A stretch of DNA of 64,000 bases from Candidatus Sulfotelmatobacter sp. (GTDB lineage: Bacteria > Acidobacteriota > Terriglobia > Terriglobales > Acidobacteriaceae), in NCBI GenBank assembly GCA_030041475.1, contig JASHNU010000012.1:1-64000 (forward strand). Reading direction: 5' to 3'. This document shows positions 31,223 to 44,883 of this stretch, one piece after another. The translations under genes and the position numbers were made by a program. Under the pieces are notes generated by a model. The model did no database searches. It was not told the DNA's origin and saw only the letters and a list, made by a program, of their open reading frames with translations. Position 1 is the stretch's first letter. The number at the start of each line of letters is the position of its first letter.

Positions 31223-33034
31223 CTATTTGCGTTGCTCCAGCTTCACGCTCGCCGTCACCGGCTGGCCATCGCGAAGGACCTTCACCTCGACCAGGTCGCC
31301 CACTTTACTGCGCCGCAGCGCGTCGGTGAAATCGTAGAGATTCTTGATCGGCTTGTCGCCGAACTGAATCAGCACATCGCCGGCCTTCAATCCGGCCTTG
31401 GCTGCCGGCGAGTTCGGTTTTACGTCCGAAAACTTCACGCCGTTTTCCGTCTGCCCGAAGTCCGGAATCGACCCAAAGTACGGGCCGTAGCCGGCGCCAC
31501 CTCCTCCCCCGGGAGGTTTTTCTTCAGCCACAACCTGGAAGGCAGGCGTGTCGTGTGCATTCGCCAACTGCACAGTCACACTCTCCACCATGTCGAGCAG
31601 CCGAGCGGCCGAGGGAGCGTTGATCTTGTCCCATGTGTCGGAGGGCTTGTGGTAATCGGAGTGGAGGCCGGAGAAGAAGAACAGAACCGGAATTCTTTTC
31701 GCGACAAAGGAAGTGTGGTCGCTCGAAGAATACCCGCCGGCCGAATACTCAATTTTGAACGGCGCATCTTTCGCCGCCTGCTCCAGCACCGACTTAAACG
31801 TCGAACCCGTGCCCACGCCGCCGATGTAGACCTTGTCGTCTTTGATGCGGCCGATCATGTCCATGTTCAGCATGGCTACAGCCTTGTCGAGCGGGCGCGT
31901 CGGATTCTTGACCCACGCTGCTGAACCGAGCAGGCCAAGTTCCTCGCCGGCAAAATTCATGAACAAGATGCTTCGCTTCAACTGCCCCCGTTGCGGGGCG
32001 AGCAGGCGCGCCAGTTCCAGGACGCCCGCGGTGCCGCTGGCATTGTCGTCGGCGCCGGGATGAATCTGGCCGATCTGCGATGGCGCGAGCGAATCGACGT
32101 TGCCGCGGCCAAGGTGATCGTAATGGGCTCCGACAATCACGTATTCGTCGCTCTCGCCGGGCAGCCACGCCAGAACGTTGTGCACGGTGGCGCGGGTGGT
32201 TTCAATGTCGATGTGCAGCGAGGCATGCAGCGCTTCAGGAAAGACAAACGGGGCCGGCTTTGACGTGGAATTGATCTGATCCTGCATCTCCTTTAGAGAT
32301 TTGCCGGCGGATCGAAACCACGATTCCGCAACGTCGTTCTTCACCTGGACGAAGATGATGCCAACATCCTCCGGGCCGCTGACGCTGCCGAAGCGGGTTA
32401 GGAGATCCTCTTCTCCGTCGCCGAGCTTGCCGTTAATCACCACCATGGCCTTCGCCCCGTGATTGCGTGCGTTAATCGCCTTGGTGATGACCTGGGAGTG
32501 TTGGGTGAGCCCATGATTGCCGCTTTTTTCCGCAAAGCCCGACGGCTCGTAGCGCAGCACGACAACGATCTTATCTTTCACATCGAGGCCGGCGTAGTCG
32601 TCGTAATTGAATTCGTCGGCGGTGGCGCCGTATCCCGCGAACACAATCGGCCCATCGGCTTCGCCGGAAGATGAAAAGCTGAAGGGAACAAAATCCTGAT
32701 CGACCTTCAGATTTTTCTTCCCCTCCGCGCCCTGCACGGAAAAATAATTGTCGGACTTCAGGCGCGCCCCGGTCACGACGGTGAAAGCTTGGGTATAGTC
32801 CCTTACACCTGCAGGTTCCAGGCCGAGTTCCTGGTATCGCTTCTCAATCAGATGTTGGGCGCGAGTGAGGCCCTTGGTGCCGGCGCCGCGGCCTTCCATC
32901 TCCGGCGAGGCGAGAGATTTGACGTCGTTGAGATATCGCTCCGGATCGGCCTGCGGGCGCGGTGTCGCAGCCGCGGTGAGCAGGAAAGCCGCGAGAAGAA
33001 ATAAGACCGCGGGAAACCGTTGGCGATTCTTCAT
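31223..33034 (-). CDS. M28 family metallopeptidase with PA insert and C-terminal PDZ domain
   Basis: A 603-residue exported peptidase. A signal peptide (about 1-28) precedes an N-terminal part with a protease-associated insertion (about 130-270). The di-zinc M28 core has ligands in VGAHYDHLG, HPGADDNASG, NFAGEELGLLG (with the catalytic glutamate pair), NMDMIGR and SSSDHTSF. A glycine-rich linker leads to a PDZ domain (about 515-603; KAGLKAGDVLIQFGDK). It most likely trims peptides at the cell surface. It is convergent with the HEAT-repeat gene. Confidence 0.94.
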   Translation of the reverse strand: MKNRQRFPAVLFLLAAFLLTAAATPRPQADPERYLNDVKSLASPEMEGRGAGTKGLTRAQHLIEKRYQELGLEPAGVRDYTQAFTVVTGARLKSDNYFSVQGAEGKKNLKVDQDFVPFSFSSSGEADGPIVFAGYGATADEFNYDDYAGLDVKDKIVVVLRYEPSGFAEKSGNHGLTQHSQVITKAINARNHGAKAMVVINGKLGDGEEDLLTRFGSVSGPEDVGIIFVQVKNDVAESWFRSAGKSLKEMQDQINSTSKPAPFVFPEALHASLHIDIETTRATVHNVLAWLPGESDEYVIVGAHYDHLGRGNVDSLAPSQIGQIHPGADDNASGTAGVLELARLLAPQRGQLKRSILFMNFAGEELGLLGSAAWVKNPTRPLDKAVAMLNMDMIGRIKDDKVYIGGVGTGSTFKSVLEQAAKDAPFKIEYSAGGYSSSDHTSFVAKRIPVLFFFSGLHSDYHKPSDTWDKINAPSAARLLDMVESVTVQLANAHDTPAFQVVAEEKPPGGGGGAGYGPYFGSIPDFGQTENGVKFSDVKPNSPAAKAGLKAGDVLIQFGDKPIKNLYDFTDALRRSKVGDLVEVKVLRDGQPVTASVKLEQRK

Positions 33035-33094
33035 ATCGACTCTCGTGAACGAAGAATCGTAAGGGGTACGTTGGCCGCCGTCAATGGCAGCACA

Positions 33095-33724
33095 TCAGGA
33101 GCCGGGCAATTCCGGATAAAGCTGCCGCCGGCAATCCGGACAGATTCCGTGGCTGAAGTCGGCCTCGGTATGCTTTCGAATATAGGTCTCGAGATGGTGC
33201 CACGTTCCTTGTGCGTCCCGAATCTTGCGGCAGGAAGCGCAGATGGGCAGCAGTCCGCTCAGAGTCTTGACCCGTCCCAGCGCTTCCTGGAGCTCTTTGA
33301 TCAACCGATTGCGCTCCGCTTCGTGAGCTTTGCGTTCCGTAATGTCGCGGACGATCAGGCATGTTTTGACTCTGCCGCTGGGCCCCTTAAAAACGACCGA
33401 CGAGAACTCGATGGGAAAGAGCGAACCGTCTTTGCGCCGCGCAACCAGTTCTCCCTGAGCGCAGCCGGTCCGCTGCCGCTCTGCCAGGAGAGCCGGCAGG
33501 TTGGGATCTGACTCATCAATGAGTCCGCGACGTCCCCCCTCCAGAATCTCTTCTCGAGTCCTGTCGAAGATTCGGCAAGCAGCAGGGTTCGCATCCAGAA
33601 TGGACCCATCCGGTGCGGTCAGCATGATGCCGTCACCGCTGTTTTGAAACAGGAGGCCGTAGAGAGCTTCGCCTGTGGAGAGGATGCCCTTCTTTTCCAC
33701 TTCCGGGGTCTTTCTCGACGTCAT
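33095..33724 (-). CDS. PAS-domain sensor protein with C-terminal cysteine motif
   Basis: A 209-residue single-domain sensor. The PAS/PAC region (about 15-135) includes NSGDGIMLTAPDGSILDANP and KTCLIVRDITERKAHEAER. A short helix connects to a conserved tail, LLPICASCRKIRD then FSHGICPDCRRQLYP, which has four cysteines placed as in a small metal-binding motif often found behind PAS or response-regulator domains. There is no kinase, cyclase or DNA-binding domain. The output partner is unknown. Confidence 0.85.
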   Translation of the reverse strand: MTSRKTPEVEKKGILSTGEALYGLLFQNSGDGIMLTAPDGSILDANPAACRIFDRTREEILEGGRRGLIDESDPNLPALLAERQRTGCAQGELVARRKDGSLFPIEFSSVVFKGPSGRVKTCLIVRDITERKAHEAERNRLIKELQEALGRVKTLSGLLPICASCRKIRDAQGTWHHLETYIRKHTEADFSHGICPDCRRQLYPELPGS

Positions 33725-33858
33725 TCGTCTAAAGCTCTTTCAAATTCCAGGTTCGCGACTTCCGAGGGGTCGCGTAAGTGGCGATTAGAAGATTTTATGC
33801 GAAGCCTTGGGACGCGACAACGAAACAAAAGAGAAAAGAGATACGGTTGTTATAAGAC

Positions 33859-34653
33859 CTATCCGATCAGCTGCACGACGGTCTCTTCTACCTGCTTCCA
33901 CGCGGTGGTGCGCGGGTCGATCAGATCAAAGTGCCCGGCGCTTGGAATTTCAAGCAGATTCACGTCTTCCTTCTGAATGCCCGCTCGCTTCGCGGCAACA
34001 TAGCTGCGGCTGAAGGCTGGCGGGACGGTATCGTCGGCCAGGCCATGAATCACCCATTGCCGGGCGCTTGGAAGGGAAAGGTGCATCGGATCGGCTTCAT
34101 GGTAGTGGTCGGGAACTTCACGAGGCGTCCTACCAAGAAACTCGACCACGGCATCATTGCTGAGATGAAGCTGATAAGCGCGCTCGAGATCGACCACTCC
34201 CGCCAGCGTGACAACGCGTGTTACGCCAGGCTCGTGCGCGGCGAGGCAGAGCGCCAGTTGGCCTCCAGCGGAGTGACCCATCACGACCACGTGCCGCGGG
34301 TCAATCCGATATTCTTTTGCGTTTTGCACCAGAAAGCTGTACGAGGAACGAATGTCGGCGAAGGTGCCGGGCCACCCGCCGCCTTCATTGCCCACACGCC
34401 GGTATTCCAGGTTGGCTGTGACCAATCCCTGGGCTGTTAGCGCCGCGCACAGGTGGCCCGCATGTTCGAGCCCATATTTGGCACGCCAGAAACCGCCATG
34501 GATATTGATAACCGTCGGAAACAGCGGGCCCTGCTCTTTCTTCGCAGCGTTCTTCGGGGGGAAACGCAAATCCGCGAATTGATTTGGGTCTGACCCGTAG
34601 GCGACGCGCTTGTCGGCGCGCGGCGGTGTCAATGTAAGAATGTCCTCAGACAT
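33859..34653 (-). CDS. Alpha/beta hydrolase (BD-FAE / kynurenine-formamidase-like)
   Basis: A 264-residue esterase-type hydrolase. The oxyanion motif is INIHGGFWR (HGG type), the nucleophile is in VMGHSAGGQLA, and the acid and histidine are in GLADDTVP and SAGHFDLID. This arrangement fits the BD-FAE group of carboxylesterases and formamidases. No signal peptide is visible, so it is cytoplasmic. No tryptophan-degradation genes are nearby, so the substrate is open. Confidence 0.87.
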   Translation of the reverse strand: MSEDILTLTPPRADKRVAYGSDPNQFADLRFPPKNAAKKEQGPLFPTVINIHGGFWRAKYGLEHAGHLCAALTAQGLVTANLEYRRVGNEGGGWPGTFADIRSSYSFLVQNAKEYRIDPRHVVVMGHSAGGQLALCLAAHEPGVTRVVTLAGVVDLERAYQLHLSNDAVVEFLGRTPREVPDHYHEADPMHLSLPSARQWVIHGLADDTVPPAFSRSYVAAKRAGIQKEDVNLLEIPSAGHFDLIDPRTTAWKQVEETVVQLIG

Positions 34654-34722
34654 GACTGATTCCGATTCTACGATTTTCGTTCAAGAAGATGGCCGCGTTT
34701 TGTCGTGATCGGAGGTGAGCTT

Positions 34723-35964
34723 CTATTCGTAGCGCAGGGCTTCGATGGGATCGAGGCCGGCTGCGCGCATCGCCGGCACCATGCCGCTCACCACGCCCAC
34801 CACGGCAAGAATCGAAGTTGCCACCAGCAGAGTCATCGGCGAAACGATCAGGCGAATATCTCCCGCCTCGGCGTGCTTGGCCAGCGCGCTATAGAAAGTG
34901 AGACGACCAACGGAGATCGAAACAGCGTAGGAGAGCAGAATTCCGAGAATTCCACCCACGGCCGTAATCACCATCGCTTCCGCGAGGAACTGAAACAGGA
35001 TGTCATGCCGCCGTGCGCCCAGCGCCTTCTCCACTCCGATCTCGCGCGTGCGCTGGGTCACCGAAACCAGCATGATGTTCATCAGGCCGACGCCGCCGAT
35101 GCCCAGCGTGATCGTGCCAATGAACGCGAGCAGGAGCTTCAGTGCCATGCTGAGGATGCTGAACTGCGCCAGCTGCTTCTGTGCATCGAACAAGAAGATC
35201 GCGCGGGGATCGTCCGGTTTGAAATTGTGAGCGGTGGCGAGGGTTTCGCGGATGGTCTTCTCCAACTTGTCGTGGTCGAGCCCCGCTGAGTCTAGCCACA
35301 TCCCGTCCAGGTAATGAGGGTCTTTCAAAACATCCATCGAGTTGAACGGGAGATAAACCACGCGGTTGTTGTCGTTGTCGCCTTCCTGCATGCGCGGTTT
35401 GCCCACGCCAATCACCTCGAAACTCACGCCGTCGATGCGGATGGTCTCGCCCAGCGCGGGCATGCCGGAAAACAGTTTGTCGCGCGCCTCCGATGCAAGC
35501 ACGGCGTATAGCCCGTGCGACAGGTTGTCGGCGTCGTCGATGAATCGGCCTTCCTCCAGTTCGAGATTCCAGATGTCCTGGATCGAAGCATCAAAGCCCA
35601 TCACAGGAAAAGTGTAGGAACGGTTTTCATTCTGCACCGTGGACTGCTTGTCCAATTCCCGCGAGACGTGGCGGCACAGAGGCACATTGTTGCGCAGGAG
35701 TTCTAGATCATCATTGGTGAAGCGAATCTGCACGCCCGCCTTGTTACCGCCCGCTTGCTGGGAGGTGCGGCCCGGGAAGACGCCGACCGAAGTTGCGCCG
35801 AAGGCCTGGAAAATGTTCTCAATGGCGCGGCCGAAGCCGTTTCCATAGGAAAGCAGCAGAACCACCGTGGCGATGCCCCACGCCATGCCCGCCATGGTGA
35901 GCAGGGTGCGGCGCAGGTCATGACGCATGGCCGAAACGGCTTGCTGGAGCAGATCGCGGTGCAT
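34723..35964 (-). CDS. MacB/FtsX-type ABC transporter permease
   Basis: A 413-residue permease of the MacB type: one N-terminal helix (LLTMAGMAWGIATVVLLLSY), a periplasmic MacB-like domain (about 50-260) and three C-terminal helices of the FtsX domain (ending ILAVVGVVSGMVPAMRA then DPIEALRYE). The ATG at 35964 is used because it is one base after the preceding permease gene; the longer frame to 36099 overlaps that gene. It forms a pair with 35966-37225, but no ATPase or membrane-fusion gene is adjacent. Confidence 0.92.
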   Translation of the reverse strand: MHRDLLQQAVSAMRHDLRRTLLTMAGMAWGIATVVLLLSYGNGFGRAIENIFQAFGATSVGVFPGRTSQQAGGNKAGVQIRFTNDDLELLRNNVPLCRHVSRELDKQSTVQNENRSYTFPVMGFDASIQDIWNLELEEGRFIDDADNLSHGLYAVLASEARDKLFSGMPALGETIRIDGVSFEVIGVGKPRMQEGDNDNNRVVYLPFNSMDVLKDPHYLDGMWLDSAGLDHDKLEKTIRETLATAHNFKPDDPRAIFLFDAQKQLAQFSILSMALKLLLAFIGTITLGIGGVGLMNIMLVSVTQRTREIGVEKALGARRHDILFQFLAEAMVITAVGGILGILLSYAVSISVGRLTFYSALAKHAEAGDIRLIVSPMTLLVATSILAVVGVVSGMVPAMRAAGLDPIEALRYE

Positions 35965-35965
35965 G

Positions 35966-37225
35966 TTATTCTTTGCGCAACGCCTCCACCGGTTCGAGCA
36001 TCGCCGCGCGCCGTGCCGGATAGAGCCCGGCCGCAACGCCGGCGATGGCCAGCGATAGGACTGCCAATGCTGCCGTCGCGGGAACCAGCCGTGGGGCATC
36101 GAAACCAGGCGAAATCTCGACCCCGGAAAAAGGCGCCATTATCGCCGCCGCTCCGGCGATCCCAATCCCGCCGCTGAGCAGAGTAAGAAATGCGCCTTCC
36201 ACGAAAAACTGAAACATGATGCTGCCGTTGGTGGCGCCCAACGCCTTGCGCAAGCCAATTTCGCGCGTCCGGTCAGCCACGGCGACCAGCATGATGTTAA
36301 TGATGCCGATCGCACCCAGGGCCAAAGTAACCAGTCCCACGCTCCCGAGAAAAGTGTTCATGGCGTCGAATATCTTGCCGACTTGGTCCACCGTATTCAC
36401 GGTGTCCCACTCGTCAAACGAGTCGGGATTGTCAGGGTCGAAGCCATGATTGCGGGCGATGACCTTATGTACTTCCTCCAGTGCCGCCTCGTGCAACGCC
36501 CGCGACTTGGGCTGGTAGTCGATGACCGAGATGACATCGGGATCGATGCCGACATTCGTCAGCCGGAAATATTCGCGCATGGTATTAAACGGAATGACGC
36601 TCTTCAGATTCAGGGCCATGTTGTCGCCATGGCCGATTCGTTGCAGAGTTCCAATCACGGTGAAGCGCACGCCGTTCAGCAGAATCGTGCTGCCCACCGC
36701 CGGCCGTCCCAGAAAAAGCGTGCGGCGGGTTTCGTCGCCGAGAATGATTACGGGACGCTTCTGCTGGTTATCCATTTCATTGATCCAGCGGCCGTCCTTG
36801 ATGGGCATGTAGCGGATCGTGTTGAACTCGGGCTGTACTCCTAAGATTTGGCCACTCGCTTGGTAGAAGTCGCTGACGGCGCGGATGTCGCTCCGCTGGA
36901 TGAGGGGTGTAGCCGCGCCCACGCTGTGGCACTCGCGCAGGATTTCCTCATAATCGCGGTAGGTCAGGTAGTACTGGCGCAGGGCCGTGAAACTGCCTTG
37001 CACCATGGGCGCGCGCGACGACCAGATGAACATGACGTTCTCGCCCAGCGAATCGAATTGCTTGCGGTTTCCGGAGCGGAATCCCTCGCCCAGCCCCACT
37101 AGCAGGAGCAGGGAACCGACGCCCCAGGCAATGCCGAACATGGTTAGGAATGAGCGCAGCTTGTGCGCCCAGAGGGTTCGCAGTGTCTGGCCGAAGATAT
37201 CGGGAATCGAGCGAAGGAAACGCAC
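35966..37225 (-). CDS. MacB/FtsX-type ABC transporter permease
   Basis: A 419-residue paralogue of the downstream permease. It has an N-terminal helix (LTMFGIAWGVGSLLLLVGLG), a periplasmic domain (about 50-285), and three FtsX helices with the signature DRTREIGLRKALGA, ending PVEALRKE. The start is GTG at 37225. TATAAT ends only 5 bases upstream of it, so the transcript may be leaderless. Such permeases export peptides or macrolides or act in lipoprotein transport; without the ATPase the substrate cannot be guessed. Confidence 0.92.
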   Translation of the reverse strand: MRFLRSIPDIFGQTLRTLWAHKLRSFLTMFGIAWGVGSLLLLVGLGEGFRSGNRKQFDSLGENVMFIWSSRAPMVQGSFTALRQYYLTYRDYEEILRECHSVGAATPLIQRSDIRAVSDFYQASGQILGVQPEFNTIRYMPIKDGRWINEMDNQQKRPVIILGDETRRTLFLGRPAVGSTILLNGVRFTVIGTLQRIGHGDNMALNLKSVIPFNTMREYFRLTNVGIDPDVISVIDYQPKSRALHEAALEEVHKVIARNHGFDPDNPDSFDEWDTVNTVDQVGKIFDAMNTFLGSVGLVTLALGAIGIINIMLVAVADRTREIGLRKALGATNGSIMFQFFVEGAFLTLLSGGIGIAGAAAIMAPFSGVEISPGFDAPRLVPATAALAVLSLAIAGVAAGLYPARRAAMLEPVEALRKE

Positions 37226-37230
37226 AAGCC

Positions 37231-37236
37231 ATTATA
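37231..37236 (-). promoter_or_regulatory. -10 element directly before the permease GTG start
   Basis: Minus-strand TATAAT ends 5 bases before the GTG at 37225. Transcription would start at or next to the start codon. There is no ribosome-binding site between, so the mRNA may be leaderless. No clear -35 was found. Confidence 0.4.
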
Positions 37237-37396
37237 CGGGCCGGCTAGTCGGAAGGCCGATTGGACCTGAGGTTCCGGCCTCTATCCCTAGCGATGAGTT
37301 CCGGCCCCTGGCAGGGGCAATTCACTCGCAAAAATCGTTGCAGGCGAGACGGATTTTCGTTCCGAAACCGGCGTGAGTTGGTTATTCTGGCGGGTG

Positions 37397-38644
37397 ATGA
37401 CGCTTGCTCTCAGCGAACTGTTGGGCGCCACGGTCTACGACCAGTCCGGCGCGGCCAGCGGGCGGGTGCGCGAAGTCGCGCTCGCGCCGCAGGAGGACCG
37501 TTCGCGGATTCAGTCGCTGATAGTCAAGACAAAATCGGGCAACCGCGTCTTGCCGTCCTCGGCGGTTTCGGCCATCAACGGCGGCGTGCGCGCGGCCACC
37601 GCGGCCGCAGACTGGCCCGCTGCGAATGGCACGGAAGGCTTGTTTCTGCTGGAGCGCGACTTGCTCGATCAGCAGGTCATCGACATCAACGGGCGAAAAG
37701 TCGTGCGGGTCAACGACGTCGATCTCCAGCTCGAGACGCAAAAGACTCCCGGACAGAACCCTGTGCTTCGCGTCTACTCGGTCGACGTTGGCGCGCGCGG
37801 CGCGGTGCGGCGCCTGCTCCGAGGGCTGGCGCCAAGGGCCGCTCTCCATGCTCTGCTCGGCAAGATTCCGCCCCGCACTATTCCCTGGAATTTTGTCGAC
37901 GTGATCGAAACCGATCCGGCGCGCCGGGTGAAACTGAAGATCTCGCACGAAGGCCTGGCCAAACTCCATCCGGCCGACATTGCCGACATCGTCGAAGAAC
38001 TGGCGCCGGACGAGCGCGAGGCCGTGTTTGAGACTCTGCCCGAAGAAAAAGCAGCGGAGGCCCTCGAAGAGGTCGAACCCAAGGTTCAGAAGGCCATCGT
38101 TGAATCCCTGGACTCCGAACGCGCCGCCGACATCGTCGAAGAGATGAATCCCGACGCGGCAGCGGACCTGCTCGGCGAACTGCCCGAGGAGCGCACCGAG
38201 CAGATTCTGGTGCAGATGGAGCCCGAAGCGCAGCAGGATGTGGTCGAGCTCCTCGAGCATAAGGAAGAAACTGCCGCTGGCCGCATGACCACCGAGTTCC
38301 TGGCTCTGCCGGTGTCGGCATTGGTACAGAACACCATCGATTCCATGCGCGAATTTGAAGGCGGCGTGGAGGCGGTTAGCACGATTTATCTGGTCGATTC
38401 CCACGGCACGCTGACCGGCGCCGTGCCGCTGGCCAGAATTGTCTTGGTTCCTCCCACAACCCCTATGCTCTCGCTTACCCAGGAGCCGTTGATCCTAGCG
38501 CATGAAAGCGCGTCGGAAAACGAGGTCGCCGAACTATTCGACAAATACAACCTGAGCTCGTTGCCCGTCGTGGACGAACATAACAAGTTGACCGGCATCA
38601 TTACCTCCGACGACGTGATCAGCATGCTGCGGGCGAAGCTGTAA
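37397..38644 (+). CDS. PRC-barrel / MgtE N-domain / CBS-pair protein
   Basis: A 415-residue cytoplasmic protein. Two PRC-barrel-like segments (about 1-85 and 85-175) are followed by a MgtE N-terminal helical domain (about 185-285; KLHPADIADIVEELAPDERE, LPEEKAAEALEEV) and a CBS pair (about 290-415; SSLPVVDEHNKLTGIITSDD). In MgtE channels these last two domains sense Mg2+, but here the membrane channel is missing. The NRAMP-family transporter two genes downstream probably supplies it. The ATG at 37397 is preferred over a GTG at 37373; neither has a strong ribosome-binding site. Confidence 0.9.
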   Translation: MTLALSELLGATVYDQSGAASGRVREVALAPQEDRSRIQSLIVKTKSGNRVLPSSAVSAINGGVRAATAAADWPAANGTEGLFLLERDLLDQQVIDINGRKVVRVNDVDLQLETQKTPGQNPVLRVYSVDVGARGAVRRLLRGLAPRAALHALLGKIPPRTIPWNFVDVIETDPARRVKLKISHEGLAKLHPADIADIVEELAPDEREAVFETLPEEKAAEALEEVEPKVQKAIVESLDSERAADIVEEMNPDAAADLLGELPEERTEQILVQMEPEAQQDVVELLEHKEETAAGRMTTEFLALPVSALVQNTIDSMREFEGGVEAVSTIYLVDSHGTLTGAVPLARIVLVPPTTPMLSLTQEPLILAHESASENEVAELFDKYNLSSLPVVDEHNKLTGIITSDDVISMLRAKL

Positions 38645-38655
38645 GGAGGCTGATT

Positions 38656-38973
38656 GTGGCAAATGCTTTTGGAAGCGATATCCTCATCCAAGCCCCGGAT
38701 CCAAAGGAAGCGGCCGCCTTCTATGTAGAACATCTTGGATTCGAGATCAGCGATCCTAACCCGAAGATGATTGGACTGCGTGGCAACCACATCAACCTGT
38801 TTATCGAGCCCGGCCCGGCGCTTGGACCGGTTCTGGAAGTAACGGTGGACAACGTCGAAGAAGCGAAACGCCGGCTCGTCAAGAATGGATGCAAGGTCGT
38901 CAAAGACGAGCCACATTTTCCCCGAGTCTACGTCAAGGACCCCTTCGGCTTGATCTACAACCTGACCAAATAA
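38656..38973 (+). CDS. VOC (glyoxalase/bleomycin-resistance) family protein
   Basis: A 105-residue single-module VOC protein with the paired beta-alpha-beta-beta-beta motifs (DILIQAPDPKEAAAFYVEHL and VYVKDPFGLIYNL). Start is GTG at 38656 with AAGGAGG 6 bases upstream. Potential metal ligands of the fold are few: glutamate in FIEPGP is visible, while the first histidine position is occupied by another residue, so enzymatic activity is uncertain. It lies 11 bases after the PRC/MgtE-N/CBS gene and is probably co-transcribed. Confidence 0.85.
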   Translation: MANAFGSDILIQAPDPKEAAAFYVEHLGFEISDPNPKMIGLRGNHINLFIEPGPALGPVLEVTVDNVEEAKRRLVKNGCKVVKDEPHFPRVYVKDPFGLIYNLTK

Positions 38974-39088
38974 AGAAGGGCAATAAATCCCTGTCGTTCT
39001 CACTTTTCCTTTGGCCAGATTCGCTACTGCGTTTATCCTGTGGCGTCGTTCGTAGCTATCATCCGCTCCATCCCTATGTCTGCGAAAT

Positions 39089-40345
39089 GTGCGCATGAGG
39101 TTCCTGAGACGCTGGAAAACCCGGATTCTGCTGTTCTTCGCAGTAGTCGGGCCGGGATTCATCACTGCGAACGTCGACAATGATGCCGGCGGCATCCTGA
39201 CCTATTCTCAGGCCGGAGCACAATACGGACATCTTCTGCTGTGGACCATGATCCCGATCACGCTTGCGCTGATCGTGGTGCAGGAAATGTGCGCTCGCAT
39301 GGGCGCGGTCACCGGCAAGGGTCTCAGCGACCTGATCCGCGAAGAATTCGGCCTGCGGATTACCTTCTTCATGATGATCGGCATCCTGATCACGAATTTC
39401 GGCAATGTGGTAACCGAGTTCATCGGCATCGCCACCAGCCTGGAATTGTTTGGAATGTCGCGCTACATCACCGTGCCGGTCTGCGCTTTCATTGTCTGGC
39501 TGATCGTGGTATATGGGCAGTACAAGAGCGTAGAGAAGATTTTTCTGGCTGCGTCGTTCTTCTATGTGACATACATTTTCGCCGGCGTGCTGGCGCATCC
39601 CGCTTGGATTGACGCCACGAAAGCCACGTTCGTGCCGCCGAAATTGAGCGCCTTCCGCGAGCAGGCGTACCTATACATGGTCATCGGCGTCGTCGGCACC
39701 ACGATCGCTCCCTGGATGCAGTTTTATCTGCAATCATCAATCGTTGAGAAAGGAGTCACGCGCCGCCAGTACAAGGCGTCAATGCTCGACGTGGTCACCG
39801 GATGCATCTTCACCGACATCGTGGCCTGGTTCATCATCGTCGCATGCGCGGCCACGCTCTACGTTCACGGATACCGCGACATCAAGTACGCCGCCGATGC
39901 GGCTCAGGCGTTGAAGCCTCTGGCAGGCGATTACGCCTACATTCTGTTCGCGGTGGGATTGTTCAATGCGTCACTGTTCGCGGCCTCCATCCTGCCGCTG
40001 TCGACGGCCTACACGGTATGTGAAGGGCTCGGCTTCGAATCCGGCGTAGGCATGAAATTCGGCGAGGCGCCGCTCTTTTATTGGTTGTATACGTTGCTGA
40101 TCGCCGCCGGCGGTGCGGTCGTGCTCATCCCCGGGCTCCCTCTGGTTAGGATCGCCATCTTGTCGCAGGTGGTCAACGGCGTGGTGCTACCCTTTGTCCT
40201 GATCTTCATGCTGCTCTTGATCAACCGCAAAGACTTGATGGGCGAATACGTCAACACGCATCTGTTCAACGCTATGGCATGGGGGACTACTGTGGTGATG
40301 ATCGGCTTGACGATCGCCTGGTTCTGGACAATACGGTCGGGCTAG
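39089..40345 (+). CDS. NRAMP-family divalent metal transporter with altered metal-site motifs (probable Mg2+ type)
   Basis: A 418-residue transporter with 10-11 membrane helices. In helix 1 the canonical DPGN is replaced by DAGG (GPGFITANVDNDAGG), keeping the aspartate but losing proline and asparagine. In helix 6 the usual MPH is replaced by APW (TTIAPWMQFYLQSS), so the methionine that selects manganese and iron is missing. These changes, with the MgtE-N/CBS protein upstream, suggest Mg2+ rather than Mn2+/Fe2+ transport. GTG at 39089 and ATG at 39095 are both possible starts. Its end overlaps the convergent Nudix gene by 4 bases. Confidence 0.88.
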   Translation: MRMRFLRRWKTRILLFFAVVGPGFITANVDNDAGGILTYSQAGAQYGHLLLWTMIPITLALIVVQEMCARMGAVTGKGLSDLIREEFGLRITFFMMIGILITNFGNVVTEFIGIATSLELFGMSRYITVPVCAFIVWLIVVYGQYKSVEKIFLAASFFYVTYIFAGVLAHPAWIDATKATFVPPKLSAFREQAYLYMVIGVVGTTIAPWMQFYLQSSIVEKGVTRRQYKASMLDVVTGCIFTDIVAWFIIVACAATLYVHGYRDIKYAADAAQALKPLAGDYAYILFAVGLFNASLFAASILPLSTAYTVCEGLGFESGVGMKFGEAPLFYWLYTLLIAAGGAVVLIPGLPLVRIAILSQVVNGVVLPFVLIFMLLLINRKDLMGEYVNTHLFNAMAWGTTVVMIGLTIAWFWTIRSG

Positions 40346-40734
40346 AGCAGTTTGCCTGCAGCCAGATCCCGCACTAATGTTTGGTCTGCTTCCAGGAAAT
40401 CGAATTTCGGCAGGTCATTCGGTGCGGCCCACTGAATATCGCGGAAGATCAGATTCTCGACTTCTCCGCGATAGTCGCGCACCACGAAAAACCGCAGCTC
40501 CACCATGGAGTGATTGGGATATTCGTGCTGGATGCGCGCGACTTCGTCTCCAACCGTCGCCACAATTCCCAGCTCCTCTTCAAGTTCTCTGCGCAGCGCG
40601 TCGCGCGGTTGCTCTTTTTCTTCGATCTTGCCACCGGGAAACTCCCATTTTAGGGGCATGGTCTGGTGGCGCGTGCGCTGGCACACCAGTACTTTGCCGT
40701 CTTTCACAATCAGACCCGCTACCACGCGCTTCAT
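40342..40734 (-). CDS. Nudix hydrolase (MutT-like)
   Basis: A 130-residue pyrophosphohydrolase. The Nudix box is complete: GGKIEEKEQPRDALRRELEE followed by ELGI. The N-terminus VVAGLIVKDGKVLVCQR and WEFPGG are typical of the MutT group, which removes oxidised nucleoside triphosphates or similar substrates. The ATG at 40734 overlaps the stop of the GAF gene by 4 bases (ATGA), so the two are translationally coupled. An earlier in-frame start at 40776 lies inside the GAF gene. Confidence 0.93.
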   Translation of the reverse strand: MKRVVAGLIVKDGKVLVCQRTRHQTMPLKWEFPGGKIEEKEQPRDALRRELEEELGIVATVGDEVARIQHEYPNHSMVELRFFVVRDYRGEVENLIFRDIQWAAPNDLPKFDFLEADQTLVRDLAAGKLL

Positions 40735-41216
40735 GAACGGGAGTTTTCCAGTTTCTTCCCCACCACCGCAGCGCAAAACTGCACCAATTCCTGGTCTTCG
40801 GGAGTGAAGGCCGCCGGGAAGTGGCTGTCGATATCGAGCTCGCCCGCCACCTTCCCTCGCACAAACACCGGCACGACAATTTCAGACTTCGTTTCCAGCG
40901 AGCAGGCCAGATAGCGGGGATCTTTGCTGACGTCGTCCACCACAACCGTCCGTCCACTCGACGCCGCCGCGCCGCAAATACCCTGGTTGAGCGGGATGCG
41001 GGTGTGCGGCGTCATGGCGCCCTCAAACGCTCCCAGAACCAGAACCGGCGGCTGGGCACCCGGTTCGAGCATGTAAAAACCCACCCAGTTGTACTTCAGC
41101 ATGCGATCGTGCAGCAGTTTCACCATCGACTTCATCAGGTCCTGGGCGGTAGGCGAAGCTGCGGACAGTCCCTCCACCTCGTTGCGCAGGTCTGCAATCT
41201 TGTCGGCTGTGGGCAT
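40731..41216 (-). CDS. GAF-domain protein similar to free methionine-R-sulfoxide reductase
   Basis: A 161-residue single GAF domain close to fRMsr, which reduces free methionine sulfoxide. Conserved stretches are NWVGFYMLEPG, NQGICGAAASSGRTVVVDDV, ACSLETKSEIVVPVFV and GELDIDSHFPAAF. Two of the three cysteines of the E. coli enzyme are present (GICG and LAC); the one before RIP is replaced by threonine/histidine (TPHTRIP). The protein may use a two-cysteine cycle or be a sensor. It is coupled to a Nudix hydrolase gene, which also fits repair of oxidative damage. Confidence 0.88.
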   Translation of the reverse strand: MPTADKIADLRNEVEGLSAASPTAQDLMKSMVKLLHDRMLKYNWVGFYMLEPGAQPPVLVLGAFEGAMTPHTRIPLNQGICGAAASSGRTVVVDDVSKDPRYLACSLETKSEIVVPVFVRGKVAGELDIDSHFPAAFTPEDQELVQFCAAVVGKKLENSRS

Positions 41217-41230
41217 GGGTAAATGTTAAC

Positions 41231-42085
41231 TCAAGGTTCTGAATACGACACTTGGGAAGCAGGAACCTCAGTAATCTGCCGTGTTCCTTTCGTGCGCGGA
41301 AACAGTTCGGGGTGAATCGCGAAGGCCAGTGCATCCAGACCGAAGACCAGCGTGGGCGCAGGAGTGTTCAGATATTCATCGCGAATCGAGAAGACCCGCC
41401 CGGTTCGCGCGGCTGAACTCGATTGCCAGCCTCGTTCGGCAACGATCTTTTGCAGCGGAACGCGTTCTCCAGCACCGCACCAGGAGGCGATGATCACCTC
41501 CGGATCGAGCCGGAGCACTTCCTCGCGCGAGACGGCGGCGCCTGGCTTGCCGACAAAATCTCCGCCGGCAATCTCCACCAGCTCCGCAACCCATGGTTGC
41601 GAAGCGAGAATTGGCTTGCCCCATTCTTCGCAGAAAACCCGCGGCCTCTCGGCTGTTGCAGTGCGAGAACGTACCTCGTCGAAGTGCCGCTGCATCTCGG
41701 CGATGACTTCTTCGCCGCGCTCCGTTGCTCCGACCGCACCGGCGATCGTGGCGATGTCGGTATAAATGTCCGCCAGAGTCTTTGGCGCCAGGCCTAGAAA
41801 GCGCGAACCAGACTTCAGAATTTCGCTCACTGCCTTCTCCTGGTAGGGAACGGCAGCAATCACAAGATCGGGCTGTGCGGCGACAATCTCGTTCGCGTCG
41901 GCTGTCCAGGAGTCGGAAAGAATCACGCGTTCGCCGTCAGCAATCCCCGGCACAACATCCGCACAATAGCGCGTGCACGCCACTACTCGGCCAAGTTCCC
42001 CGATTGCGTGAAGAATGACGCTCGCACTCGGTTGCAGGCAGGCGATGCGAATTGGGGAGTGGGAATTGGGCATGGTGTAGGTCAT
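41231..42085 (-). CDS. BtuF-like cobalamin/iron-complex binding protein without signal peptide
   Basis: A 284-residue protein of the periplasmic-binding family of corrinoid and siderophore importers. Features include RIACLQPSASVILHAIGE, QPDLVIAAVPYQEKAVSEIL, FCEEWGKPI and RLDPEVIIASWCGAGER. There is no signal peptide or lipobox, so it would remain in the cytoplasm. The start overlaps the stop of the IscU-like gene (ATGA), indicating coupling. No permease or ATPase is next to it. It might bind a corrinoid inside the cell or act in a different pathway from uptake. Confidence 0.85.
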   Translation of the reverse strand: MTYTMPNSHSPIRIACLQPSASVILHAIGELGRVVACTRYCADVVPGIADGERVILSDSWTADANEIVAAQPDLVIAAVPYQEKAVSEILKSGSRFLGLAPKTLADIYTDIATIAGAVGATERGEEVIAEMQRHFDEVRSRTATAERPRVFCEEWGKPILASQPWVAELVEIAGGDFVGKPGAAVSREEVLRLDPEVIIASWCGAGERVPLQKIVAERGWQSSSAARTGRVFSIRDEYLNTPAPTLVFGLDALAFAIHPELFPRTKGTRQITEVPASQVSYSEP

Positions 42086-42441
42086 TGCTCAAGCTGCCGG
42101 AGTGCTGTCGACAGCGCGTCCAGCGCCAGCTGCGCCGCATGCGTCGAAGCCTGCGGCAATCCCCCGACCGCGGCGATCAAATCTTCACTGCGAAGTCGCC
42201 GTGCGTGGTCCAGAGTTTTTCCCGCGATGATCTCCGTCATGGCGGAAGCGCACGCCATCGAGGGCACGCAACCCTTCGCTTTGAACCGGACGTCGATCAC
42301 GCGGCCGGAGTCGACTTTCATGGTCAGGCGGAGCCGGTCCCCGCACACCGGGTTTTCGACCTCCGCCGTGGCGTCGGGGTCAGAAATGTCACCGGCATTG
42401 CGCGGATTCTGAAAATGATCGAGCAGTTGCGCCGAATACAT
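42082..42441 (-). CDS. IscU/NifU-N-like iron-sulfur scaffold protein lacking the third cysteine
   Basis: A 119-residue scaffold beginning MYSAQLLDHFQNPRNAG, the typical IscU/NifU start. The first two cluster cysteines are in NPVCGD and KGCVPSMACAS. At the third position the usual HC is HA (LPQASTHAAQLALDAL), so one ligand is missing. Cluster building may use another residue, or the protein may have another role. A frame reaching further upstream to 42828 is overlap with the phosphatase gene and is rejected. Its stop overlaps the start of the BtuF-like gene. Confidence 0.87.
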   Translation of the reverse strand: MYSAQLLDHFQNPRNAGDISDPDATAEVENPVCGDRLRLTMKVDSGRVIDVRFKAKGCVPSMACASAMTEIIAGKTLDHARRLRSEDLIAAVGGLPQASTHAAQLALDALSTALRQLEQ

Positions 42442-42550
42442 CCTGCTCAGATTGTAAACGGGCAGCGGCCGTAGAGTACGCGAGGTGAAGTCGACCTTCC
42501 AACTGGAAGGGCATTCCGGCTCAATCTGCAGAAAACGTGGGGCGACGAGT

Positions 42551-43264
42551 TCACCGTCTGCCGTCGGGAAAGTAGATAGACCATCCGCGCTCGCGCGCTT
42601 TCGTCTCGAGATCAGGATTCGGATTGACCACGAAGGGGTGCCTTGTCTGTTCGAGCATTTCCGTGTCCCAGCGCGAATTGCCGAAGGCAGCATCGATTTC
42701 CCGGCCCACCACCTCGCGCAGGGCGTCTGCCTTGCCCGGCCCCGACGGAATGCGTATGAGGCGGTCCGTGACCGTGCCATTCTCCAGCTGAGCCTTGGTC
42801 GCGAGAATGTGATCGTCGGAAATGCCAAACGGTTTCATTCCGGCGCGAATTACCCATTCATTCGACGACGAGACCACCCACAGATCGCAGCCACTTTGCC
42901 GCAAGCGCCAAACCAACTCCTGCATTTCCGGGAAAATCGAGCCGGGGAACGAATGCTGCATAAAATCGGATGCCGCCTGCATCACAATTTCTTCCGACAG
43001 GCCGCGGTGCATGGTGACCATCTCGCCACACATGTCGTCTTCGGTGACCCTCCCGGCTTTGTATTCGGCGTAGCGGGCGCGCATGGCCACGCCGACTTCA
43101 GCCGGCACGATCCCCTGTTTGATTTCCCAATCGAAGAAACTTTCGCCCGCATCACCCGACCACAGCGTCCCGTCGCAGTCGAATGCGGCCACGCGCGCCT
43201 CGAGCCGCAGGACGGAGTCGAGGAAATCCTGGCGGGAGAGAATATTTGCATTCGGCGTGGCCAT
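42551..43264 (-). CDS. HAD-superfamily phosphatase (SerB-like)
   Basis: A 237-residue hydrolase. Motif I is AFDCDGTLW (nucleophile and acid aspartates), motif II the serine in LWVVSSSNEW, and motifs III/IV are in SGPGKADAL and FGNSRWDTEML. The cap region and length match phosphoserine-phosphatase-like and HAD-IB enzymes. Substrate unknown; serine biosynthesis genes are not adjacent. It is encoded between the IscU-like and MocA-like genes, all on the minus strand with short gaps. Confidence 0.88.
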   Translation of the reverse strand: MATPNANILSRQDFLDSVLRLEARVAAFDCDGTLWSGDAGESFFDWEIKQGIVPAEVGVAMRARYAEYKAGRVTEDDMCGEMVTMHRGLSEEIVMQAASDFMQHSFPGSIFPEMQELVWRLRQSGCDLWVVSSSNEWVIRAGMKPFGISDDHILATKAQLENGTVTDRLIRIPSGPGKADALREVVGREIDAAFGNSRWDTEMLEQTRHPFVVNPNPDLETKARERGWSIYFPDGRR

Positions 43265-43314
43265 GTTGATTTGACGATAACGGCAGACAATACAATGCGC
43301 AAACCGGCAAGGGC

Positions 43315-43953
43315 TCAGCCTGTCGCCTTCTCCACCAGAGCCGCGTAGTCCTCGGGTGTGTTGACGTTCAGGGCGACGAAAGGATCGCTCACCGTAACGT
43401 AACGAATGTGCTCCTGATAACGGTGCTCGACGTCGCGGGCGCTGGCCGTCGCCGGCGCTTGCAGAAAAGCTTCGATGAGTTCGCGGCCGGCCAGCAGCGG
43501 ATGCCCGTGCTGGCCGGAAAATTCCGGCACGACCGCCCAGGTTGTTGCCGGTGCGCTTTGAAATGTTGCGCGCAACAGGTCAAGCGTCACTGAGCGAACT
43601 GGAGGCCGGTCGACCAGCGTAATCATTGCCGCATCGCGGCCCTGATTGAGCACTTCCTGCAGTCCCAGTTGCAGCGAGCTGAATTGGCCGCGGCTCGTGT
43701 CGGGATTGACCACGATGGAAGCTCCATTCGCATACACCACCGGGGCCAGCGCGGCCTCGTTCTGACCGACAACTACCACGACGAAGTCAGTGGAAAGCGA
43801 AAGGGAGCGGATCGCCGCCGAAAGAAAAGTTTCCCCCTGCCCCGCCTGCCCTGCGGACTGCGGAGGCCAGGGGAGCAGTCCTTTGTCGGTGCGCATCCGC
43901 GAGGATTCGCCCGCCGCCAGAATCACACCAGCGAAGCTCGCGGAACGGGTCAT
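43315..43953 (-). CDS. MobA/MocA-like nucleotidyltransferase
   Basis: A 212-residue NTP transferase of the MobA/MocA family, which adds CMP or GMP to the molybdenum cofactor. Seen are the nucleotide loop GVILAAGESSRMRTDKGLLP, the acidic VDRPPVRSVTL (a DRP where DxP is usual) and the substrate region GQHGHPLLAGRE. It lies 46 bases after the XdhC-like gene; this pair commonly serves the maturation of molybdenum hydroxylases. No such hydroxylase is in the window. Confidence 0.88.
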   Translation of the reverse strand: MTRSASFAGVILAAGESSRMRTDKGLLPWPPQSAGQAGQGETFLSAAIRSLSLSTDFVVVVVGQNEAALAPVVYANGASIVVNPDTSRGQFSSLQLGLQEVLNQGRDAAMITLVDRPPVRSVTLDLLRATFQSAPATTWAVVPEFSGQHGHPLLAGRELIEAFLQAPATASARDVEHRYQEHIRYVTVSDPFVALNVNTPEDYAALVEKATG

Positions 43954-43998
43954 GGTGCGGAAGATAGCAGAAAGCGGGGAGAAAGTCAGTGAGCAGAA

Positions 43999-44883
43999 TC
44001 AAGGCTGCTGCTCATTATCGACGGCTCGCTCCGTCACTTGCTCCAAGGCGCGGTCTGGATCCGCGCCGCCGCGTTTTGCTGAAGCGAACCAGCTCATGTG
44101 TGGTAGAGTCGCGCTCGCGTTCCGGCGCACCGCGATCAGCTCCGCCGTGATGGCAACCGCAATTTCTTCCGGCGTAATCGCCCCGATGTCGAGCCCGATC
44201 GGAGCGTGCACGCGCTCAAAAAGATGAGCAGGCAGTCCCTCCTGCCGCAGCGTCTCAAAAATCTTGATCACCTTGCGCTTCGATCCGATCATGCCCACGT
44301 AGCGCGCCCGCGTCTGCACTGCCCAACGGAGAATGTGCATGTCGTCGCGGTGCCCGCGGGTCACGATGACGATGGAAGAAGACTCGTTCGGGTCGAGCTG
44401 CCGCATGGCTTCGTCGAAATCGAGCGCGTGCACTTCGCGCGCCGCCGGGAAGCGCTCTTTGGTCGCGTACGAGGAGCGATCGTCGCTCACAATCACGTCG
44501 AAGCCCGAAGCGGCTGCCATCTGGCAAAGGCTGGCAGCAACGTGACCTGCGCCGAAAATATAAAGTAATGCTGGAGGCAGCACCGGCTCGACGAAAACCT
44601 CCAGCGTGCCGCCGCACACCAAGCCAGTATCGTATTTGGGATCCTGATTCAGATCGAAAGTGAGCGTGCGCGGCTTCTCCGATTCCATGACTTCCCGCGC
44701 CGCCTGCCAGACCTCGGCTTCCACGCAGCCGCCGCCGATCGTGCCCGCAATCGAACCGTCGTCACGCACCAGCATCTTCGCCGTCTTGAACGAAGGAATC
44801 GACCCGCGCACGTTCACGATCGTGGCAACTGCGCCCCGGCGTCCCTGGCGGCGTAGCTCGACTATTTGTTCGTAGATGTCCAT
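43999..44883 (-). CDS. XdhC/CoxI family protein (molybdenum hydroxylase maturation)
   Basis: A 294-residue protein that in this family helps insert or sulfurate the molybdenum cofactor of xanthine-dehydrogenase-like enzymes. The XdhC/CoxI domain has GSIPSFKTAKMLV, GTIGGGCVEAEVW and GLVCGGTLEVFVEP; the C-terminal Rossmann-like domain has YIFGAGHVAASLCQ and YVGMIGSKRKV. The ATG at 44883 (MDIYEQIVEL) fits the family; a start 15 codons upstream is less likely. It precedes the MocA-like gene on the same strand. Confidence 0.93.
   Translation of the reverse strand: MDIYEQIVELRRQGRRGAVATIVNVRGSIPSFKTAKMLVRDDGSIAGTIGGGCVEAEVWQAAREVMESEKPRTLTFDLNQDPKYDTGLVCGGTLEVFVEPVLPPALLYIFGAGHVAASLCQMAAASGFDVIVSDDRSSYATKERFPAAREVHALDFDEAMRQLDPNESSSIVIVTRGHRDDMHILRWAVQTRARYVGMIGSKRKVIKIFETLRQEGLPAHLFERVHAPIGLDIGAITPEEIAVAITAELIAVRRNASATLPHMSWFASAKRGGADPDRALEQVTERAVDNEQQP

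Follow-up and report, generated by a model that had tools for sequence, protein, structure and literature searches.

A carrier of the NRMT type and a co-inherited, MgtE-like soluble protein form a probable Mg2+ uptake module in Candidatus Sulfotelmatobacter

We analyzed a 64,000-nucleotide stretch of Candidatus Sulfotelmatobacter sp. (assembly GCA_030041475.1, contig JASHNU010000012.1, positions 1 to 64,000; here, the window), in which two plus-strand genes encode a soluble protein related to the cytosolic half of the Mg2+ channel MgtE (the sensor) and a transporter of the NRAMP family (the carrier). The two probably constitute an NRMT-type Mg2+ uptake module in which the co-inherited sensor would restrain the carrier in trans. 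Both the pairing and the sensor/carrier idea were already published in 2014, and the nearest experimental test went partly against the idea. How cells with an NRMT carrier avoid a Mg2+ overload has been a question since then. New here are the co-occurrence of the two genes across a phylum, their near-exclusion with the MgtE channel, a mapping of the Mg2+ sites, and what may be the reason that the earlier test failed.

The carrier gene (39089-40345, plus strand; 418 amino acids [aa]) encodes a PF01566 protein (E = 2e-96). Its best solved relative was EleNRMT (7qia; 370 bits), followed by a DraNramp MntH chain (111 bits), and it shared 48% identity with EleNRMT, 25% with DraNramp, and 24% with an MntH of E. 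coli. A preliminary description of this DNA had reported an NRAMP-like protein at 39089 with DPGN changed to DAGG and MPH to APW, and alignment against DraNramp bore this out. The metal-site motifs D-A-G-G in transmembrane helix 1 (TM1; 39182..39193, plus strand) and T-T-I-A-P-W in TM6 (39698..39715, plus strand) are identical to those of EleNRMT, whereas DraNramp has D-P-G-N and A-T-V-M-P-H. The MntH/Slc11 signature (D-P-G-N in TM1, M-P-H in TM6) is absent from the carrier, and the signature given for NRMTs, DxxG in TM1 and TxxA/T in TM6 (PMC8806188), is present as D-A-G-G and T-T-I-A. The description's statement that NRAMP-related Mg2+ transporters differ at these positions agrees with that signature and with the EleNRMT motifs. 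In a maximum-likelihood tree of 50 rows, the carrier fell inside the NRMT clade (94/89), with MntH in a separate clade (100/100); the FastTree value for the same NRMT node was only 0.44. Ionizable residues tied to proton coupling have been lost, as in NRMTs generally: the TM6 His of MntH is W and the TM3 Asp is V; like EleNRMT, the carrier retains the TM3 Glu. The W and V replacements fit the uncoupled transport reported for EleNRMT, for which no proton coupling was found (PMC8806188). Its place in the tree and its metal-site motifs both identify the carrier as an NRMT, and Mg2+ would be its main physiological substrate.

The sensor gene (37397-38644, plus strand; 415 aa) starts with an ATG at 37397 and its stop codon ends at 38644; the open reading frame could instead begin at 37373. 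PRC, MgtE_N, and CBS domains all scored above their Pfam cutoffs, and all three were matched in each of the 22 sensor homologs scanned (E ≤ 0.01). The MgtE family model TIGR00400 (450 positions) aligned only over positions 24 to 252, at 148 bits and below its 233-bit cutoff. No hydrophobic segment was found in the sensor (the top 19-residue Kyte-Doolittle mean was 1.3), and its C terminus corresponds approximately to residue 256 of Thermus thermophilus MgtE, before the plug helix and channel. The sensor thus has MgtE_N and CBS but neither the plug helix nor the PF01769 channel domain, which upholds the earlier claim of MgtE N and CBS domains without a channel, along with a PRC-barrel part. The MgtE_N domain (PF03448) occupies residues 190-291 (37964..38269) and the CBS pair (PF00571) residues 292-415 (38270..38641), both placed by site mapping and the CBS pair also by fold match. 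The predicted fold of the sensor, a model of middling confidence (predicted local distance difference test [pLDDT] 76, predicted template modeling score [pTM] 0.42), matched the MgtE cytosolic domains best (2yvy, E = 2.9e-20; 2oux, Z = 20.2). From its sequence, the sensor is soluble and is a homolog of the cytosolic, Mg2+-sensing half of MgtE.

The N-terminal part of the sensor appears to hold two barrels. The first (residues 4-63, 37406..37585) rests on the Pfam match to PF05239, and the second (approximately residues 85-162, 37649..37882) on predicted strands and conservation only, with Pfam silent and its boundaries approximate; it includes an invariant-residue block at 85-107. Both are on the plus strand, like the domains that follow. 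Residues 1-166 folded alone gave a low-confidence model (pLDDT 64.5) resembling the tandem PRC-type proteins CdpB1/CdpB2 (E = 1.8e-4) and, weakly, reaction-center H subunits. The VIA-align matches to the full sensor model, which mainly cover residues 253-415, included no PRC chain. Our literature search found no paper joining a PRC barrel and a CBS domain with MgtE or a magnesium transporter.

To follow the two genes across the phylum, we used 149 acidobacterial genomes (4 + 145) at least 90% complete. NRMTs were called at E ≤ 1e-110 and full-length sensors at a query start ≤ 5 and E ≤ 1e-56, thresholds chosen after a gap had been seen in the match lists; nine genomes (G102, G116, G119, G126, G128, G157, G162, G177, and G185) were counted as a second clade. 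NRMT was present in 36 genomes and the full-length sensor in the same 36, and the other 113 lacked both. In 26 of these genomes the two genes were no more than 6 kb apart, always in the same orientation and with the sensor leading, which is also the arrangement in the window and that of the published pairs; in the other 10 they were unlinked (on different contigs in 9 and 199 kb apart in 1). Among 101 nearer relatives, NRMT was found in 84, the sensor in 89, and both in 82, with 42 pairs within 6 kb, again all same-strand and sensor first. In this count, partial sensors at contig ends were taken as present and matches that were only MgtE-like (E of about 1e-30 or weaker) were excluded. Eight of the nine one-sided relatives were less than 90% complete, and the ninth (G005, 95%) is either a real exception or a gap. 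NRMT was carried by 209 of the 219 genomes of the window's family with a completeness of 95% or more. The sensor and carrier are co-inherited across the phylum, so the absence of conserved co-occurrence, which the preliminary description had named as grounds for dropping its proposal, was not what we found.

That the genes are mere neighbors without a functional tie is extremely improbable and is already contradicted by the data. It could be argued from the VOC/glyoxalase-like gene that lies between them in the window, and from sensor loci without a carrier: among the best 80 of 240 sensor matches, in named genomes, the carrier lay downstream in 50, and of the remaining 30, 12 extended over 6 kb downstream and still showed no carrier (the other 18 were shorter on that side). 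Against this stand the co-occurrence in 36 of 36 genomes, the constant strand and order of all 26 close pairs, and the adjacency of the same pair on a plasmid of Alicyclobacillus (Bacillota).

The presence of the pair was also related to that of the MgtE channel. The MgtE channel domain was found in 5 of the 36 NRMT genomes versus 82 of the 113 others (Fisher's exact test, P = 5e-10, uncorrected for kinship). CorA had no such bias (19/36 versus 75/113; P = 0.17; one below-cutoff match, in G243, was dropped). That the pair and the MgtE channel so rarely share a genome across the phylum points to a single sensing domain having been joined to two unrelated transport machines. Both MgtE and CorA were absent from 20 of the 149 genomes, of which 15 had the NRMT pair, 2 a related pair, and 3 neither. 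The window's genome (99.6% complete) is among the 15: it had no match to PF01769 or CorA and no Mg2+ P-type ATPase over the cutoff. Three weak matches to the Mg2+-ATPase model were rejected as KdpB and two heavy-metal types (HMBD and YHS domains; copper-ATPase model). By elimination, the carrier is the main, and the only recognized, Mg2+ importer predicted for this genome, although an importer of another, unrecognized family is possible. A soil acidobacterium thus appears to import Mg2+ through a carrier family that usually moves manganese or iron. Separately, G135, G166, and G213 are near-complete acidobacterial genomes without an MgtE, CorA, or NRMT match.

Alternatively, the carrier could be mainly a Mn2+ importer and its MgtE-like partner could answer to Mn2+, as Shin et al. 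suggested for Acidobacterium capsulatum (PMC4072509). We consider this quite unlikely. EleNRMT does transport Mn2+ (PMC8806188), neither of the two NRAMPs of the window's genome has the canonical D-P-G-N, and no ZnuA/MntC-type binding protein was found in that genome. However, a mainly Mn2+-importing carrier would leave the genome without a recognized Mg2+ importer, and genomes with the pair mostly lack MgtE. The genome's only other NRAMP (contig C50, with the unusual metal-site motifs D-G-P-S and A-T-V-T; L208 1233-3544; G000:C50:164500-170000) also sits just downstream of a DtxR/MntR-type regulator gene with a FeoA domain, for which the named NCBIfam models score below their cutoffs. In this context, the second NRAMP is the likelier Mn/Fe importer.

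The experimental case for Mn2+ comes from A. capsulatum. Shin et al. (2014, PMC4072509) reported that most NrmT genes adjoin a gene homologous to the MgtE cytosolic domain, put forward feedback control or a chaperone role for the MgtE-like partner, and tested A. capsulatum Acp2977 with and without the sensor Acp2976. Among the literature matches listed, theirs is the only paper combining NrmT with an MgtE-like protein or MgtE cytoplasmic domain. Acp2977 rescued a Mn2+ defect fully and a Mg2+ defect only at low millimolar Mg2+, and coexpression of Acp2976 gave no better Mg2+ rescue (PMC4072509).

The pair in genome G264, which belongs to the same family, has the same gene order as the window's, with the sensor 50% and the carrier 66% identical. 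We take G264 to be the A. capsulatum genome. Its TM1 motif is D-P-N-G, and its sensor has S and H in place of the two aspartates of the Mg2+ site Mg4, with Mg6 and Mg7 kept. If the identification holds, the A. capsulatum pair is atypical in both partners, so its Mn2+ result may not transfer, or may transfer less, to the window's pair, in which D-A-G-G and both aspartates are intact. We infer that this atypical pair could be why the 2014 test failed.

The Mg2+ sites of MgtE, named as in PMC5882242, were mapped on 69 nonredundant NRMT-type sensors and 20 acidobacterial MgtE channels. In the window's sensor (numbered from 37397), the equivalents are E221 (Mg7), D253 and D406 (Mg4), and D257 (Mg6), and the Mg5 positions are N and S. 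The Mg4 aspartates were kept in most sensors and in all channels (D91, 58/69 and 20/20; D247, 59/69 and 20/20), and the Mg7 position was E or D in 54 of 69 sensors and 17 of 20 channels. The Mg6 residue D95 was present in 69 of 69 sensors versus 4 of 20 channels; its assignment to Mg6 is taken from the T. thermophilus protein. At Mg5, 19 of 20 channels had the aspartate D250, where sensors mostly had S, A, E, or N. The D226 position was N in 63 of 69 sensors, yet 10 of 20 channels had N there too, which leaves D250 as the one position that argues for loss of this site. The Mg2/Mg3 residues E258 and D259 fall past the end of the sensor. The mapping therefore indicates that the residues linking the N domain with the CBS pair have for the most part been retained and that the plug residues have been lost. 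ATP sensing by the CBS pair was considered and rejected: R187 is lost in the window's sensor, and the F227 position is uninformative because it is L in 17 of 20 MgtE channels as well.

Across 109 pairs, both Mg4 aspartates were present in 93, the others having G/Q (11), G/N (2), S/H (2), or G/D (1), and D95 was kept in all 109. The carrier's TM1 motif and the state of Mg4 in the sensor were weakly linked (Fisher's exact test, P = 0.035, uncorrected for kinship; 2 of the 109 pairs, with gaps, were dropped). Of the 17 genomes of the window's family within the phylum set, 6 bear CorA, and in all of these the two Mg4 aspartates of the sensor are replaced by G/Q. CorA and MgtE are both absent from 6 others, whose sensors have G/Q or S/H, and from the 4 in which both aspartates are kept.

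We propose that Mg2+ would enter through the NRMT independently of protons, with its own gradient and the membrane potential as the driving force. As cytosolic Mg2+ rises, it would bridge the N domain of the sensor to the CBS pair through Mg4, Mg6, and Mg7, and the Mg2+-bound sensor would close as in MgtE. The closed sensor, with its PRC barrels docked at the carrier's cytosolic side, might then slow transport, a feedback inhibition in trans. Of the gated transporter with a separate sensor subunit envisaged in the preliminary description, NRMT identity and co-occurrence lend support to the two components, and the complex and its gating remain proposals. The window's pair, with D-A-G-G, Mg4, Mg6, and Mg7 intact and no other recognized importer in the genome, is better suited than the one studied in 2014 and makes the idea of a regulatory subunit directly testable.

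A different division of labor is that the carrier imports Mg2+ and the MgtE-like protein never touches it, serving instead to buffer or chaperone Mg2+ or to switch some other target. This seems rather unlikely to us. A chaperone was the alternative offered in 2014, and the sensor was dispensable for transport in that work (PMC4072509). The genes are unlinked in 10 of the 36 phylum genomes, and PRC barrels are general protein-docking folds, as the matches to archaeal CdpB and reaction-center H illustrate. A protein acting elsewhere is, however, harder to reconcile with the finding that the same 36 genomes have both genes and the same 113 have neither, or with related sensors standing beside related outgroup carriers (see below).

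Several observations weigh against a Mg2+ uptake module restrained by its sensor. Besides the partial Mg2+ rescue and the ineffective coexpression in A. capsulatum, EleNRMT binds Mn2+ more tightly than Mg2+ (Kd of about 100 µM versus about 400 µM; PMC8806188), although a carrier of Mn2+ may still have a role in Mg2+ uptake because EleNRMT transports both. The unlinked genes in 10 genomes and the 12 carrierless sensor loci point the same way. D95 is variable in acidobacterial MgtE channels, and its Mg2+ role in sensors is therefore uncertain. Finally, no M-box riboswitch was found at 33000-44000 of the window or in 45 genomes (with stricter filters for more than 40 of them), and M-box control of the pair was rejected. 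In the published pairs, the M-box is a trait of some members only and is not required.

Sensors of this type are not confined to NRMTs. Two further Nramp-outgroup clades, which the tree separates from NRMT, likewise have an MgtE_N-CBS gene beside the carrier gene. In the first, a sensor gene was present at 7 of 7 acidobacterial loci (L199-L205). The plasmid loci of the outgroup clades, hand-picked from the carrier search (40 listed of 366 records), had one at 6 of 7 (the exception being L223), and the Serratia and Citrobacter plasmid loci also turned up in the sensor search. Six other outgroup-type loci (L206, L207, L208, L224, L254, and L255) had no sensor within the few kilobases covered. 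D104, D115, and W172 (numbered from 37373) were identical in all 83 nonredundant sensors of both kinds. This wider pairing was not seen in the parts consulted of PMC4072509, PMC8806188, and PMC9606685. It is conceivable, though we hold it at somewhat below even chances, that the PRC-MgtE_N-CBS protein is a detachable Mg2+-sensing subunit serving NRMTs and two outgroup clades (one mostly plasmid-borne here), with the MgtE switch reused in trans on an unrelated LeuT-type carrier; that this two-part machine replaced the classical Mg2+ importers in the lineage; and that coexpression failed in 2014 due to a decayed Mg4 site. In our records, an outgroup carrier with an adjoining MgtE_N-CBS gene occurs on actinobacterial, Citrobacter, and Serratia plasmids (L218-L222 and L257-L260), and in the Citrobacter, Serratia, and Cellulomonas records the pair lies next to genes for a P-type ATPase and for a regulator of the ArsR or winged-helix type.

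The preliminary description had placed the two genes beside each other, but they are not direct neighbors: the VOC/glyoxalase-like gene (38656-38973, plus strand; 105 aa) sits between them. A VOC gene occupies this position in only 2 of 50 linked homologous loci, so we regard it as incidental and rejected it as a third component of the module. The upstream neighbor is a MacB/FtsX-type gene pair on the opposite strand. Downstream, at 41231-43264, the minus strand carries two genes that, as judged by eye from translations, encode a BtuF-like binding protein and a phosphatase of the HAD type. The same two genes look common to the A. capsulatum candidate genome (L262 5131-6678), so the neighborhood seems conserved. 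The nearest named record over the sensor, among the best 80 of 240 sensor matches, was 97% identical (L063).

Compared with known systems, the window's pair is closest to the published NrmT/MgtE-N-like pairs, namely the Clostridium acetobutylicum Ca_c0685 operon and Acp2976/Acp2977 (PMC4072509), with which it shares the carrier clade and a separate upstream gene for an MgtE cytosolic domain. It differs from them in the intervening VOC gene, and it has no M-box, as is also the case in A. capsulatum (PMC4072509). Relative to the A. capsulatum candidate, it keeps D-A-G-G and both Mg4 aspartates where the candidate has D-P-N-G and S/H. The N domain and CBS pair are common to the sensor and the MgtE cytosolic domain (2yvy, 2zy9; Z of about 20, 29 to 30% identity), as are the Mg4, Mg6, and Mg7 residues; the sensor lacks the plug helix, the channel, and the Mg2, Mg3, and Mg5 residues and has tandem PRC-type barrels added. 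With MntH and canonical NRAMPs (DraNramp 8e5s, E. coli MntH), the carrier has PF01566 and the fold in common, but at 25% and 24% identity it lacks D-P-G-N, M-P-H, and the TM3 Asp and belongs to a separate clade. EleNRMT (7qia), an uncoupled Mg2+/Mn2+ transporter, is much nearer, with 48% identity, identical TM1 and TM6 motifs, and the same clade; in the available part of PMC8806188 it was studied as a carrier alone, whereas in the window such a carrier is accompanied by its sensor.

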